In this document: positions 785 to 9,170 of the stretch, in pieces
Numbering within the stretch: the stretch's first letter is position 1
How the letters are laid out: each line of letters opens with the position of its first letter
Notes under the pieces: model-generated
Seen by the model: only the letters and a program-made list of their open reading frames with translations
Told to the model about the DNA's origin: nothing
Database searches by the model: none
Source of the DNA: Candidatus Berkelbacteria bacterium
GTDB lineage: Bacteria > Patescibacteriota > UBA1384 > JACPKC01
DNA length: 52,603 bases
Direction: 5' to 3'
NCBI GenBank assembly: GCA_016198415.1
Contig: JACQIO010000016.1
Coordinates: forward strand, 70,084 to 122,686
Translations under genes and position numbers: made by a program

Positions 785-889
785 GGTTGCTCCTTTTCTA
801 TCCCAGTATAGACGAAGTGTGATATGGAGAGACCGGCGGGGATCCGCCGGTCTCTGGGGCACTGTGTGCCATGGCCTCCTCCCTCCGGA

Positions 890-1756
890 CTAGCGAGTGA
901 CGGGGTAGGCGTGGAGGTAGTTGATGATCCAGCGCCGGAGCGCTGGATGCCGTCCGAATGGGTGGTGCTCGAGGGTGGGGCCATGGCCGTGTGCGGCTGG
1001 TCCGACCACGAATCCAAGGACCTCGGTCGTGACCGCCTCGGCGAGCGCCTCGTGGAATGGAACTGGATCCTCGCGGGGATCGATGAGTCGGCCAGACCAG
1101 TACGCGCTCGCGTAGTGGCTGAACGGCCGGCCGAGGTCGGCCAGGAGTCGGTAGCCCTCGAGGAGGTAGTCCCGACTCGAGATGACCGTATCCGCACCAA
1201 CGTTGAGGCGGCGGTCAGCTCGGAACCACTCCGGCCACGCGACCGTGTGGACGATCTCGTGGGCAAGTGTCCAGGCCAGGGCGATCGTTGCCACGCGCTC
1301 CTCGTACTGGTCCTCGTCCAGGCCCAGCTCGTAGAGCGTGATCGTCGCCTCGCAGTACGTGTCGTCGGCCCCGGTGTAGCCGGGAACGACCGCTGTTGGT
1401 GAGAGCGCCTCTGCGGGCTGACTGGTGACGTGCTCGGGCGTGAGCGGCTGCGCGTCGACCGCACTTGGTTTGAACCAGAGCGGTCGTGCGAACCGAATCC
1501 CCTTGAGGATCGAGCGGGTGTACCAGACCGCCGAGAATCGCCCGAGAATGCTGGCGACGTTCGGCTTCGTGAACTGCCCATCGTAGGGCATCTCCACGCG
1601 CAGGCCATCCAACATCCGCTCGTCGAGCACTCGGCTGACGTAGAGGCCGAGGTCGATCCAGAGTCGGTCCCTGATCGACCGGTAGCAGTCGAGCTCCGGC
1701 TTCATGTCGAGGCCGGGCAGGGGTTGAGCTGAGCCGTTCAAGCTCAAGTGAACCAC
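890..1756 (-). CDS. putative zinc metallopeptidase-like protein (HEIVH)
   Basis: 288 aa ORF with LAHEIVHT zincin-like motif. Confidence 0.6.
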   Translation of the reverse strand: MVHLSLNGSAQPLPGLDMKPELDCYRSIRDRLWIDLGLYVSRVLDERMLDGLRVEMPYDGQFTKPNVASILGRFSAVWYTRSILKGIRFARPLWFKPSAVDAQPLTPEHVTSQPAEALSPTAVVPGYTGADDTYCEATITLYELGLDEDQYEERVATIALAWTLAHEIVHTVAWPEWFRADRRLNVGADTVISSRDYLLEGYRLLADLGRPFSHYASAYWSGRLIDPREDPVPFHEALAEAVTTEVLGFVVGPAAHGHGPTLEHHPFGRHPALRRWIINYLHAYPVTR

Positions 1757-2680: not shown

Positions 2681-3889
2681 TCAGTGCTTGCTTATCGGAG
2701 GCTCATAATACCGCACGTTCGCAAGACTCTTGGGGAGGAAATCGGGCATGCCCTCCTCTTTCTGCCCATAGCCCTGCTCCTCCATGAATGTGGTGACGGC
2801 GTTGCGCAGGTGCAGCGGGATGGGCTCAAGCGTCAGCTCGCGGACATCGTGGAGGGCCCGCTCGATGCCGGTGTAGGCGGCCCGGTTCTTGGGTGCGCTC
2901 GCCAGGTACGTGGCGCACTGGGCCAGGACAATCCGTGCCTCTGGGTAACCGATCATGTGCGCTGCTGTCATCGTGGCCGTGGCGACCACCAGGGCCGTTG
3001 GCAGGGCGTTGCCCACATCCTCTGAGGCAAAGACGACCATCCGCCGGGCAATGAAGACCGGATCCTCGCCCGCCTCAATCATCCGAGCCAAGTAGTGGAG
3101 GGCGGCGTTGGCATCCGAGCCGCGCAGGGACTTGATGAAGGCCGAGATGGTGTTGTAGTGCTCTTCGCCGGCTTGATCGTACCGGACCACCTTCCGCTGG
3201 ACGGCTTCCCGCGCCGTTTCAAGATCGATCCGGAGCCCTAGTTCGCAGGCCACTTCGAGCGAGCCCAGCAGCGTCCGGGCATCACCGTCGGCGGCCGCAA
3301 TCAGGTACTCCGTCGCCTCTCTCGTCGATTGGTGCTCCGGGTAGAGCGTCAGGGCGCGCCGGATCAGCTCGTGGAGTGCCCTGTGCTCGAGTGGCTTGAG
3401 CGTAAAAACGCGGAGCCGGGATAAGAGCGGTGCGTTCACCTTGAAGCTGGGGTTCTCCGTGGTGGCGCCAACGAGCGTGATAGTCCCCTCTTCGACCGCA
3501 TGGAGGAGCGCATCCTGCTGGGCGGTGTTGAAGCGGTGAATCTCATCGATGAACAGAATTGGCGTGGCCTCCTCGAGTCGACGCCGCACGCCGGCGGCTT
3601 CAATGATACGGCGGACATCCTTGACCGTGGCATCGACTGCCGTCAGGGCCTCGAATGGACGGTCGAGTTCTCTGGCGATGACGCGGGCGAGCGTGGTTTT
3701 GCCGGTCCCCGGTGGTCCCCAGAAGAGCAGGCTGGGCATCCGGCCGGACTTGAGAAACTTAGTCAGCGGCTTGCCGGGGCCAATCAGGTGGTCTTGACCG
3801 ACGACCGCTCGCAGGCGCTCTGGACGCAGGCGCTCAGCCAACGGTGGCTGAATATCCTGGTCCTGACGACGGAGTCGCTTTGGTGACAT
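2681..3889 (-). CDS. rarA: replication-associated recombination protein A (AAA ATPase, MgsA/RarA)
   Basis: Walker A GPPGTGKTTLA, Walker B FIDEIHRF, LVGATTENPSF; start likely at MSPKRLRRQD (ORF extends to 3925). Confidence 0.93.
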   Translation of the reverse strand: MSPKRLRRQDQDIQPPLAERLRPERLRAVVGQDHLIGPGKPLTKFLKSGRMPSLLFWGPPGTGKTTLARVIARELDRPFEALTAVDATVKDVRRIIEAAGVRRRLEEATPILFIDEIHRFNTAQQDALLHAVEEGTITLVGATTENPSFKVNAPLLSRLRVFTLKPLEHRALHELIRRALTLYPEHQSTREATEYLIAAADGDARTLLGSLEVACELGLRIDLETAREAVQRKVVRYDQAGEEHYNTISAFIKSLRGSDANAALHYLARMIEAGEDPVFIARRMVVFASEDVGNALPTALVVATATMTAAHMIGYPEARIVLAQCATYLASAPKNRAAYTGIERALHDVRELTLEPIPLHLRNAVTTFMEEQGYGQKEEGMPDFLPKSLANVRYYEPPISKH

Positions 3890-3928
3890 ACCGACATTGT
3901 ACTCTACCGAATGAACCCCGAACACTTC

Positions 3929-3980
3929 CGTTCCAACACTCCCGGAGTGGATAGCTGGTCACTCCGGGAGTGTTGGAACG
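3929..3980. repeat. perfect 21-bp inverted repeat (hairpin/cruciform)
   Basis: CGTTCCAACACTCCCGGAGTG (3929-3949) - 10 nt - CACTCCGGGAGTGTTGGAACG (3960-3980). Confidence 0.95.
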
Positions 3981-3983
3981 CAG

Positions 3984-4010
3984 AGCGGCCCGGCGTACTA
4001 CCGGGCCGCT
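3984..4010 (-). terminator. GC-rich 10-bp hairpin downstream of the 4036-5115 gene (possible terminator, no U tract)
   Basis: AGCGGCCCGG/CCGGGCCGCT, 7-nt loop. Confidence 0.5.
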
Positions 4011-6040: not shown

Positions 6041-6274
6041 CTAGGCGTCGAGAGTCGGGATTTCCAGGAGATCGGGCTGGTCAGGCTCGAGCTCCAGGAT
6101 CTCCTCTCCCCCTTCGTCCAGGAGCAGGAAGTAGTAGACGGTCTCCCCATCCTCGGAGAGGATGATGATTTCCGTCACCCCCGGTGGCTCGCCCTGCCAC
6201 TCGGGGTCCTCCTGCACCCGGCCACAGCCGGCCAGCAGGAGGATGGTGAGGAAAAGTACCAGGGAGCTGCGCAT
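6041..6274 (-). CDS. small secreted lipoprotein
   Basis: MRSSLVLFLTILLLAGCGRV..., lipobox LLAGC, RBS GGGAGG upstream; start 6274. Confidence 0.7.
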   Translation of the reverse strand: MRSSLVLFLTILLLAGCGRVQEDPEWQGEPPGVTEIIILSEDGETVYYFLLLDEGGEEILELEPDQPDLLEIPTLDA

Positions 6275-6311
6275 TGCACAGTCCCTCCCTTCATGGTTGT
6301 GACGGGTGTCA

Positions 6312-6360
6312 ACCGCCCAGTGTTGTGCCCGTGCCCCCTGCGGGCGCAACGCTGGGTGGT
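6312..6360. repeat. 20-bp stem hairpin in the leader of the lipoprotein gene
   Basis: ACCGCCCAGTGTTGTGCCCG (6312-6331) vs CGGGCGCAACGCTGGGTGGT (6341-6360); 17 WC + 3 GU pairs when read on + strand. Confidence 0.85.
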
Positions 6361-6504
6361 CCACCCTTCTAGCGGTGGACCGCCAGGCGCTCTGCCGTCA
6401 GCTGGGCGGCACAGCACCTGAAGGTCCAATCGCGTCTCTTAGCCTCCTTGGTCTGGCGGGGTGAGAGCGAGCGATACACCACACGAGTCTCTGACGCAGA
6501 AGGC

Positions 6505-6597
6505 CTAAGGGGTTTGTATCCCGGCCCTGCGCAGATCCCGCGGATGAATGTGCAACACTCGCTCACTCCCATCCCGCCACACGCTGTAAAGTTTCAT
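6505..6597 (-). CDS. possible leaderless 30-aa ORF
   Basis: ATG only about 5 nt from predicted TSS of the 6637-6609 promoter; encodes MKLYSVWRDGSERVLHIHPRDLRRAGIQTP*. Confidence 0.35.
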   Translation of the reverse strand: MKLYSVWRDGSERVLHIHPRDLRRAGIQTP

Positions 6598-6608
6598 TGA
6601 CGAAGCGG

Positions 6609-6637
6609 ACTATAGCACACCTGAATACATATGTCAA
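6609..6637 (-). promoter_or_regulatory. sigma70-like promoter
   Basis: Minus strand TTGACA - 17 nt - TATAGT. Confidence 0.75.
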
Positions 6638-6779
6638 GAGTATCTGACACGACTGGGCATCGAATCGATCGAACCGTTCCTGCGAACAGGATCGGGAGTA
6701 GCTGTCAGCCAGTCTGTCCCGGGTCAGTCTGAACGGACATACGCGGAACAGCAGATCTCATACATCGGATCAGTCTCGC

Positions 6780-6808
6780 TTGACAGACCCAAGCTCCTCT
6801 GCTACTCT
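6780..6808 (+). promoter_or_regulatory. sigma70-like promoter for the 6815-7184 transcript
   Basis: TTGACA (6780-6785) - 17 nt - TACTCT (6803-6808); predicted TSS about 6815. Confidence 0.65.
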
Positions 6809-6862
6809 TCCCCCGTCGCTTCGGCGACTAAAATGAAGGACACGAAAGGAGGAAGAGCGCAC

Positions 6863-6952
6863 ATGAAACGCTCGCTGAGCGGAGGTGCTGGCGGAAAGCC
6901 GGCACATACGTACCCCAGCGAGCAACCGCTCGCAGGGGTCAATCGCATCTGA
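6863..6952 (+). CDS. possible small peptide ORF
   Basis: GAAAGGAGG SD-like sequence ~10 nt upstream of ATG; MKRSLSGGAGGKPAHTYPSEQPLAGVNRI*; an in-frame ATG also at 6833. Confidence 0.3.
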   Translation: MKRSLSGGAGGKPAHTYPSEQPLAGVNRI

Positions 6953-7162
6953 AGTGGGCGCCCGACTGGGCGCCCCGGCAAGAGCGAAGCCGCGTTGTGG
7001 CCATCAATCCCATATGCCAGACGCGGCAACGAACCCCGACGAGCGGAGGTGGCACGTATGGGCGGATAGCCCTTGGGCCCTGCCCCGCCGGTGACCCCGG
7101 CGGGGCGGACCGCCCACGTACCACCAGCGCTCGCAGAACGATGGGGTGCTAAACAGCAAAAA

Positions 7163-7184
7163 AGCGAGGACCTGAGTCCTCGCT
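7163..7184 (+). terminator. 9-bp hairpin at end of candidate RNA (terminator-like, no U tract)
   Basis: AGCGAGGAC-CTGA-GTCCTCGCT. Confidence 0.45.
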
Positions 7185-7199
7185 CAACCATCGACCTTC

Positions 7200-7225
7200 A
7201 AGGGTGCGCCTCCGGGCGCACCCTT
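7200..7225. terminator. 11-bp GC-rich hairpin between convergent transcripts
   Basis: AAGGGTGCGCC-TCCG-GGCGCACCCTT. Confidence 0.6.
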
Positions 7226-7240
7226 GTCACGTTCGCCTCG

Positions 7241-8026
7241 CTAAGACCGTTTTACTTCTGAATGATGCTTAGCCCCAAGCCAGGCGAACTCGAGCATGAC
7301 CCGCATGTTTCTCGCGATGGCCTCATTCTCAATCAAAATCCCATAGGGTTTGTGCTCATCAAGGTAGAAGATCTTTACCCCCCAAGGGAACACTGTGAGG
7401 GTCATATCAATAGGTAGGACAGTCCGTGGAAGGTAGAGAGCTTCGCGGTTTTCTTGCTTGTTTCTCTCTTCGTCGACGGGGCCACCGTCACGAGTATAGA
7501 TAGCGCGTGAGTGGATGCCTGCCTTGACTCGACTCGTAACCGCTTCCTTGCGACGCTCGGGGAACTGTCGTTCCAGGATATCGAGCGGGAAGATAGAAAA
7601 GATCTCGTTCTTCCCCTCCTTGACTTTCTTCTCCTGGCCGTACTTATCAAGTGCAACAAGTCCCTCAGCGCCTTCGAAGTACCTGACCGTCGGTTTATCA
7701 CCCGAGGCGTTGTAGATGGCCATCAGCTGGTTCAGGGAGTCGTCGAGCTCCTGTTTGCGCGCCTCGATCGACTGCTGTTGCTGGCTCAACAGGTTGGCAA
7801 GCTCTTTGGGTGACTCAGCAATGAAGAGGGTCTTTTTACCCTCTTCAACCGTACTCACTAAGCCCAAGGACATCAGTTTCTCCAGAATCACGTAGGTGGT
7901 TGGGCGAACCACGCTCGCCTTCTTGGCGATGTGTTGGACCGTATCCTGACCGAGTTCCAAGGTGGCCAGGTAGACCTTCGCCTCCTTCTCCGAGAGGCCG
8001 AGTTTCTCAAGGAGTTTCTCAAGCAT
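7241..8026 (-). CDS. TrmB-family HTH transcriptional regulator
   Basis: LEKLGLSEKEAKVYLATLELGQDTVQHIAKKASVVRPTTYVILEKLMSLGLV winged-HTH, TrmB-like. Confidence 0.88.
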   Translation of the reverse strand: MLEKLLEKLGLSEKEAKVYLATLELGQDTVQHIAKKASVVRPTTYVILEKLMSLGLVSTVEEGKKTLFIAESPKELANLLSQQQQSIEARKQELDDSLNQLMAIYNASGDKPTVRYFEGAEGLVALDKYGQEKKVKEGKNEIFSIFPLDILERQFPERRKEAVTSRVKAGIHSRAIYTRDGGPVDEERNKQENREALYLPRTVLPIDMTLTVFPWGVKIFYLDEHKPYGILIENEAIARNMRVMLEFAWLGAKHHSEVKRS

Positions 8027-8123: not shown

Positions 8124-9170
8124 TTCTAGACTCAGTGCACCACTCGTCACTTGTAGGATGAGGTGGCAAGGAGGTGCACATGGAGCAGGAACGGCTCACG
8201 TTCCGCGACCGGCAGTGGATTGAGTTCGGTGCGGCGCTGGGGTGGAGTTGCCGGCAGATTGGACGCCATGTTCGTCGCAACCACTCGGTGGTGGTCCGGG
8301 AGCTGAACCGGAACAGCGACCACTTCGGCTACGAGGCAGACCGCGCCCAGCACTATGCGACACGACGGGAGGCTGGGAAGTCACAGCTGAAGTTGGGCAA
8401 GGATCCCCGCCTCAAGGAGTGGGTGGTGGAACGGCTGCAGGAGGACTGGAGCCCGGAACAGATTGCCGGGAGGCTCCGGCACCACCCACCGAAGGAATTA
8501 CGCGACAGACAGGTGTGCCACGAAACGATCTACCAGTTTGTGTACAACAGTGAGGGTCAGTGGCTTGACCTCTGGCGGTGCTTACGACGGCGACACCAGA
8601 TGAGACGTCCAGTGCGAACGCGACAAACCAGACCAACCCTCATCCCAGAGCGTACCTCCATTCACCTGCGACCGGAAGCGGTGAACGACCGTACGATCCT
8701 CGGTCACTGGGAGAGTGACACCGTGGAAGGGCGGCGGGGCCGCCCTGGCGGCCTCTCCGTCCAAGTGGAGCGGCTGAGCCGGTTCACCCTCATGACGCTC
8801 CTTGGGAGCAAACGAGCGGAGGAAACGGCGGACGCCCTGGTGCGCACGGTGGAGCGACTGCCTCAGGGAACGGTGCGGTCCGTCACCTTCGACAACGGAC
8901 CGGAGGGAGCCAAGCATACGGTGCTTCAGGGTGAGTACGGTATCCCGACGTACTTCACCGACCCGTACTGCTCGTGGCAGAAAGGCACCGTGGAGAACAT
9001 GAATGGCTTCATCCGCCAGTACTTCCCGAAGCGGTTTGACCCAACTACCACCACGGATGACCAAGTTCGCCGGGCCGAAGACCGGTTGAACCACCGACCG
9101 AGAAAGTGCCTCACCTACCAGACCCCAGCTGAGGTCTTTGCCACCCTGAGTGGTGCATTAGCGTCTTGAA
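8124..9170 (+). mobile_element. IS30-family insertion sequence
   Basis: Imperfect terminal inverted repeats TTCTAGACTCAGTGCACCACTC (8124-8145) and GAGTGGTGCATTAGCGTCTTGAA (9148-9170) flank one DDE transposase ORF. Confidence 0.85.
8180..9169 (+). CDS. IS30-family DDE transposase
   Basis: GHWESDTVEG ... VTFDNGPE ... WQKGTVENMNGFIRQYFPKR catalytic motifs; N-terminal HTH. Confidence 0.95.
   Translation: MEQERLTFRDRQWIEFGAALGWSCRQIGRHVRRNHSVVVRELNRNSDHFGYEADRAQHYATRREAGKSQLKLGKDPRLKEWVVERLQEDWSPEQIAGRLRHHPPKELRDRQVCHETIYQFVYNSEGQWLDLWRCLRRRHQMRRPVRTRQTRPTLIPERTSIHLRPEAVNDRTILGHWESDTVEGRRGRPGGLSVQVERLSRFTLMTLLGSKRAEETADALVRTVERLPQGTVRSVTFDNGPEGAKHTVLQGEYGIPTYFTDPYCSWQKGTVENMNGFIRQYFPKRFDPTTTTDDQVRRAEDRLNHRPRKCLTYQTPAEVFATLSGALAS

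Follow-up and report, generated by a model that had tools for sequence, protein, structure and literature searches.

The window, as we call the whole 52,603-nucleotide stretch analyzed here, comes from a Berkelbacteria genome of 738 kb that is 83% complete. It holds a putative RNA gene on the plus strand and, 56 bp away and convergent with it, a gene for a TrmB-family regulator (trmB, 7241..8026, minus strand). The promoter of the RNA (6780..6808, plus strand) consists of TTGACA (6780-6785), a 17-nt spacer, and TACTCT (6803-6808), with a TG standing two bases before the latter (TG-n-TACTCT). A simple scan overlooks it because its −10 element matches at only three of six positions. When the 300 nt upstream were shuffled with dinucleotides preserved, no shuffle reached its score of 10, which bears out the sigma70-like promoter that the original prediction had placed here. 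The predicted start is the G of GTCGC at 6815, seven bases past the promoter, and the hairpin said to be based there is indeed present (GTCGC-TTCG-GCGAC, 6815..6828, plus strand) and forms part of the predicted fold. Beyond it lie a purine-rich, Shine-Dalgarno (SD)-like stretch, AAAGGAGGAAGAG (6845..6857), a 29-codon ORF, MKRSLSGGAGGKPAHTYPSEQPLAGVNRI (6863..6952), a hairpin, GTGCTGGC-GGAAA-GCCGGCAC (6885..6905), and a large multi-tier arm (7033..7148), all on the plus strand.

The region 6815-7184 (370 nt) has a minimum free energy of −199.8 kcal/mol (z=−8.86), and none of 100 dinucleotide shuffles folded as well, so the multi-stem structure that had been proposed is present and far better than shuffled controls. 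The arm on its own (7033-7148) gives z=−5.8. When the whole window was scanned in nonoverlapping 200-nt tiles, 7001-7200 (plus strand) was the second most extreme; other extreme tiles are 801-1000 (minus strand, z −9.5) and 3801-4000 (minus strand, z −7.5), of which the latter overlaps the upstream end of mgsA. The minus strand of the RNA region also folds well (z=−7.6), as expected for palindromic DNA, and the strand is therefore assigned from the promoter and the SD sequence. A possible internal duplication of two arms (the GAGCGGAGGTG repeat) reached only p=0.019 against shuffles and thus is not claimed.

No Rfam (release 15) family matched 6815-7184 at the gathering score, the only matches in the window being two tRNAs elsewhere. 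Relaxing the cut-off to E≤10 brought only chance-level matches to the RNA region; among the weak ones, Scr6925 (18.5 bits) and flavi_FSE were dismissed as chance. The RNA is not tmRNA or RNase P RNA, both of which the genome encodes on other contigs (G000:C37, 108 bits, and G000:C36, 161 bits, respectively), and the window has no Rfam match to SRP RNA or 6S RNA. With its own predicted promoter, strong fold, and place outside Rfam, the candidate holds up as an independent, highly structured RNA gene. Searches by blastn with the RNA against 99 genomes of the phylum and 55 of the class returned only short chance matches, and no relatives of the RNA were found in the plasmid collection. Viral contigs, searched with the TrmB alignment, also gave none.

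The 3′ end requires some care. The 9-bp hairpin with which the RNA had been proposed to end is present; however, together with its T6 run it makes a good intrinsic terminator of trmB on the minus strand (7162..7185), so the plus-strand end is not fixed by it. This terminator could act for both strands. Alternatively, the end may lie at a perfect 12-bp hairpin between the RNA and trmB (7199..7226). Recognizable T-run terminators occur in seven of 31 related loci, compared with 1.6 in shuffles.

Several neighboring features deserve mention in their own right. The minus strand of 6280-6640 contains a strong divergent promoter (TTGACA-17-TATAGT, 6637-6609) and about 330 nt of sequence that folds well (two tiles, with z −6.3 and −5.5), ahead of a small lipoprotein-like ORF (6041-6270). 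This stretch may be a second RNA or else a structured leader of considerable length. Directly upstream of trmB is an IS30-like transposase gene (8174-9169, plus strand).

The original prediction overlooked a second SD sequence and a three-codon ORF that lie within the large arm. The SD, GGAGGTG (7045..7051, plus strand), is separated by 8 nt, counted from GGAGG, from ATG GGC GGA TAG (7058..7069, plus strand), which would encode MGG; the whole reads GGAGGTGGCACGT-ATG-GGC-GGA-TAG (7045-7069). In the predicted fold the SD is mostly paired (unpaired probability 0.16). Just past the ORF is a 10-bp hairpin, GCCCCGCCGG/CCGGCGGGGC (7082..7106, plus strand).

Because direct nucleotide searches gave no relatives, we sought them via the neighboring TrmB protein and its flanks. 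The closest is a locus from another Berkelbacteria MAG (L059), whose TrmB is 52% identical. Its 3′ flank contains a promoter, a hairpin directly past it (GCTGAA-TCG-TTCAGC), GGAGGAAGAG (also part of the purine-rich stretch in the window), GTACCCC, and GGAGGTGACGCTATGGGCAATTAAATGCCC, which resembles GGAGGTGGCACGTATGGGCGGATAGCCC of the window. The nearest relatives have micro-ORFs of their own: MGN in L059, MGH and MGW in L016, and MGF in L015. In L059, no ATG follows GGAGGAAGAG, so that the start codon of the 29-codon ORF has no counterpart and this ORF probably is not the conserved unit. The original prediction had suggested a dual-function RNA carrying a frame of 29-39 aa, and had held that conservation of the 39-aa frame without RNA covariation would speak against an RNA gene; the ORF that does recur is a different and far smaller one. 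A dual function is still plausible.

How much of the structure is shared is a separate question. The hairpin at 6885..6905 aligns with a helix of L059 in which eight of eight pairs are kept, three of them via changes on one side. The consensus of the window and L059 contains 17 pairs changed on both sides, in a MAFFT alignment that is poor in the 3′ half, and a set of four sequences gives only 15 pairs. By eye, the micro-ORF regions of the window and L059 share a closing stem that incorporates some of the SD, a small GGGC/GCCC hairpin directly downstream from the AUG, and a long hairpin whose sequence differs; L059 and L016 both have a hairpin of other sequence at the site equivalent to 7082..7106. 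Matching of the window with L059 succeeded only for these local helices near the micro-ORF, and they serve as no more than a lead, given the unreliable 3′ alignment. No fold was found to be shared class-wide across the related loci compared. The mean fold z of 33 loci is −2.8 versus −1.7 in controls (p=0.018), a modest family-wide signal. Thus, the strong fold holds for the window, but the fold is not the unit that recurs among relatives. That unit is the combination of a predicted strong SD and a micro-ORF, usually of three codons, beside a trmB gene.

The flanks of other trmB genes have no overall sequence likeness to the window, yet repeatedly contain an SD ahead of a frame that runs from ATG to stop in two to nine codons (e.g., MGMGG, MASPGGGR, MGT, MGE, MNW, MVD, MGN). 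In a first set there were 20 such ORFs 0-500 nt past trmB; elsewhere, each 500-nt bin held roughly one on each strand. We then applied a fixed rule (AGGAG, GGAGG, AAGGGG, or AGGGGG 3-12 nt before the ATG; two to nine codons; 450 nt of 3′ flank) to one well-supported TrmB clade drawn from many Patescibacteria. Micro-ORFs were detected beside 32 of 52 clade genes versus one of 31 on the sister side (p=3e-8) and 25 of 482 background tiles of the same loci (p=2e-22); shuffled flanks gave a mean of 3.9 per 52 and a maximum of nine. For ORFs of exactly three codons, the counts were 19/52 in the clade, 0/31 in the sister set, 3/482 in tiles, and 0.6/52 in shuffles. Twenty clade genes have no detected micro-ORF under this rule, perhaps in part because the SD requirement is strict (L061 and L064 show one by eye).

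The TrmB phylogeny agrees with these counts. A branch marked 99* parts a side on which 32 of 53 rows have a micro-ORF from a side on which one of 31 does, and the micro-ORF label changes 13 times on the tree versus 26 times when shuffled (0/500), in loci that share ancestry and are not fully independent phylogenetically. All members of the starred group that includes the TrmB of the window (L059, L015, and L016) have micro-ORFs. Using a profile (A3) built from clade members, for which at least 250 bits separates clade genes from paralogs, we found a micro-ORF in all 10 genes of the fetched loci at or above this score and in one of 22 other paralogs below it, with the caveat that the threshold was set after scores were seen and that seven of the 10 genes were already known. 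The other three of the 10, from new loci found later (L160-L162), each have one (MGGG, MGG, and MGS). The 22 paralogs include four other TrmB genes from the genome of the window, none of which has a micro-ORF. The paralog and held-out tests are only partly blind, as the clade set, the sister set, and A3 were all defined after the first micro-ORFs had been observed. The module is patchy: 20 of 380 genomes of the phylum have a TrmB that passes the profile threshold applied.

The neighboring protein has a PF01978 winged helix (55 bits versus a cut-off of 25.6; Pfam TrmB, 5.4e-15) and a TrmBL2-like C-terminal domain. Its AlphaFold2 model (pLDDT 91, pTM 0.57) has TrmBL2 as the best PDB match in Foldseek (E 7e-14), so that both the domain score and the full-length fold place it in the TrmB family. 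In three assemblies (L018/L079, L019, and L077) the trmB contigs end at about residue 126-132, and other TrmB matches cover residues 1-123 only; this may reflect recombination, or a repeat, at the junction of the DNA-binding half with the C-terminal domain.

Among related loci, the RNA is located 3′ of trmB, in either convergent or codirectional orientation. A sigma70-like promoter scoring at least 10 was found upstream of the first micro-ORF in 21 of 31 loci, and in some codirectional cases it overlaps the end of trmB. A boxA-like GTTCTTT occurs on the RNA strand in 10 of the 31 (including L066, L069, L085, L128, L131, L133, L138, and L145), whereas the opposite strand has one and shuffles give 1.3; it is absent from the RNA of the window. 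boxA is an antitermination element, needed by some untranslated RNAs. In one genus, a pth gene directly follows the micro-ORF RNA (L126:425-1003, L128:378-959, and L129:2729-3331), and a conserved element (CTGGCGGAACATTGC...) precedes pth in L126 and L129. A gene for an MgsA-type AAA+ ATPase adjoins the RNA in L015 (L015:1-1101); in the window, mgsA (2681-3925) is about 3 kb from the RNA, which hints at a common gene order in the class.

Of 41 micro-ORFs, 22 have Gly at codon 2, versus four of 26 background micro-ORFs (p=0.002), and the codons used, among those counted, are GGA (seven), GGC (six), GGT (five), and GGG (one). The use of all four Gly codons suggests a real peptide, as does the scarcity of aliphatic last residues (two of 42 versus 36% expected from codons); both signals point to constraint at the peptide level. 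Two loci of one genus, L125 and L126, have MTH (ACT CAT TGA) and MGRTH (GGA CGT ACT CAC TAA), which are set apart by an indel of two codons that keeps the frame, by one synonymous change (CAT/CAC), and by their stop codons. Several RNAs contain paired, similar micro-ORFs (MNW/MLW, MGH/MGW, MGT/MGS, and MEG/MES). Start, stop, and length persist across loci while codons vary, and close TrmB relatives can differ, as in L135 (MVD, ATG GTC GAT TAA) and L138 (MGN, ATG GGT AAC TGA). Such fast residue turnover would be unlike a fixed ligand. At the level of sequence, the comparisons establish linkage to one TrmB clade, a persistent start, stop, and short length, a residue bias, and a predicted promoter of its own in most loci.

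Our preferred reading, to which we give a little less than an even chance, is a two-gene module in which a gene for a TrmB regulator is paired with an RNA gene on its 3′ side, the SD and micro-ORF being the essential parts of the RNA, the output a peptide made reiteratively, and TrmB the controller or receptor. Ribosomes recruited by the strong SD would stay on the RNA and translate the micro-ORF again and again, a behavior reported in vitro for ORFs of two to eight codons (PMC6495379). A stable, folded RNA would in this way yield a short formyl-peptide in quantity (fMet-Gly-Gly in the window). Because the SD lies in a stem, translation in the window may require that the arm opens. TrmB would govern transcription of the RNA and/or sense the peptide or its product. 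The receptor role is disfavored by the modeled structure, in that its closest match, TrmBL2, is a chromatin protein and no known peptide sensor. That the module is widespread in Patescibacteria, with dedicated RNAs making di- to nonapeptides (mostly fMet-Gly-X) reiteratively and the adjacent TrmB as receptor or controller, is a tentative proposal that we consider somewhat doubtful; if true, there would be stand-alone three-codon genes that serve as signals.

The chief rival, which we think unlikely, is that translation itself is the function: fast initiation with early termination or drop-off at codon 2-3 would tie up tRNA, peptidyl-tRNA hydrolase (Pth), or ribosomes and slow growth, and TrmB would keep the RNA off. 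The window has a few-codon ORF after a predicted SD sequence, the defining arrangement of a minigene; toxic minigenes combine a strong SD with a very short ORF, and their effect depends on both the final codon and recycling by Pth (PMC8708949). Drift of peptide residues among close relatives and the location of pth immediately downstream from the RNA in L126, L128, and L129 would both fit, although the latter is limited to one genus. However, the most common length is three codons, with very few ORFs of two codons (reputedly the most toxic length), and Gly at codon 2 with a free third base and few aliphatic last residues point to the peptide.

Less probable again is that the folded RNA is what functions, as an sRNA or by binding protein, and that the SD and micro-ORF only load a ribosome that protects it from RNases or Rho. 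The very strong fold found in the window is consistent with this, as are GTTCTTT in 10 of 31 loci, reminiscent of untranslated RNAs that need antitermination, and the 5′ SD without a start codon in L059; the SDs of minigenes can protect mRNA (PMC8708949). However, folds are unshared across loci and their mean z is only modestly lower than that of controls, the window lacks GTTCTTT, and protection would need neither Gly at codon 2 nor a stop at codon 4. We consider it very improbable that the initial proposal of a plain structured ncRNA is right and the three-codon ORF a single-locus coincidence: an SD, ATG, and nearby stop do arise by chance (six further ORFs of two to nine codons with an SD in the 52.6-kb window), but L059, L015, and L016 all have micro-ORFs and the statistics hold clade-wide. 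Least probable of all is that terminators and repeats between the convergent genes account for most of the palindromic DNA, which would fit the clear minus-strand terminator (7185-7162) and the second hairpin (7199-7226) but not a 370-nt multi-helix fold behind a consensus promoter, nor the codirectional RNAs elsewhere that own their promoters.

If translated, the three-codon frame would rank with the smallest coding units known to be conserved. Such units would be invisible in annotated genomes because gene callers skip genes of three codons, and the label “structured ncRNA” can conceal a micro-ORF. The association of micro-ORFs with one TrmB clade across many lineages of streamlined, mostly uncultured bacteria is a testable case for genes at the lower size limit, whether the module proves to be a new type of peptide signal, a translation-based control of growth, or a ribosome-loaded RNA. 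In the open-access papers searched we found no TrmB paper that deals with Patescibacteria or the Candidate Phyla Radiation and no description of the module; an earlier report elsewhere is possible.

Among known systems, mccA, the seven-codon precursor gene of microcin C (PMC6495379), resembles the RNA of the window in its very short ORF in the reiterative range, strong SD, downstream terminator hairpin, and abundant short RNA. It differs in that it heads an operon with modification enzymes (MccB), whereas here the ORFs have two to nine codons and the partner is TrmB; no MccB-type adenylating enzyme was found among the eight window proteins and 20 neighbor proteins of related loci scanned. In Rap-Phr, PlcR-PapR, and phage arbitrium, a short, fast-changing peptide gene likewise lies beside a regulator gene. 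Their known peptides are released by cleavage of exported precursors that are tens of residues long, and act with RRNPP regulators; here the regulator is TrmB, and a three-codon ORF is too short for a signal peptide. The dual-function sRNAs SgrS/SgrT and RNAIII also combine a structured RNA with a small ORF, which is far longer than a micro-ORF. Archaeal TrmB and TrmBL2 regulators share the winged helix and C-terminal domain and include the best fold match of the neighboring protein. We know of no linked micro-ORF RNA for them, and the fetched archaeal loci (such as L100-L102, L104, L112-L114, L116, and L118) have no micro-ORF. Minigenes, of which bar of phage lambda is an example, offer another comparison. 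A further example is axe-txe mg2 (PMC8708949). Both are alike in having an ORF of two to three codons after a strong SD and a link to peptidyl-tRNA hydrolase. However, known minigenes belong to phage DNA or to the leaders that precede larger genes, whereas the micro-ORFs described here lie in stand-alone RNA genes linked to a regulator across lineages.
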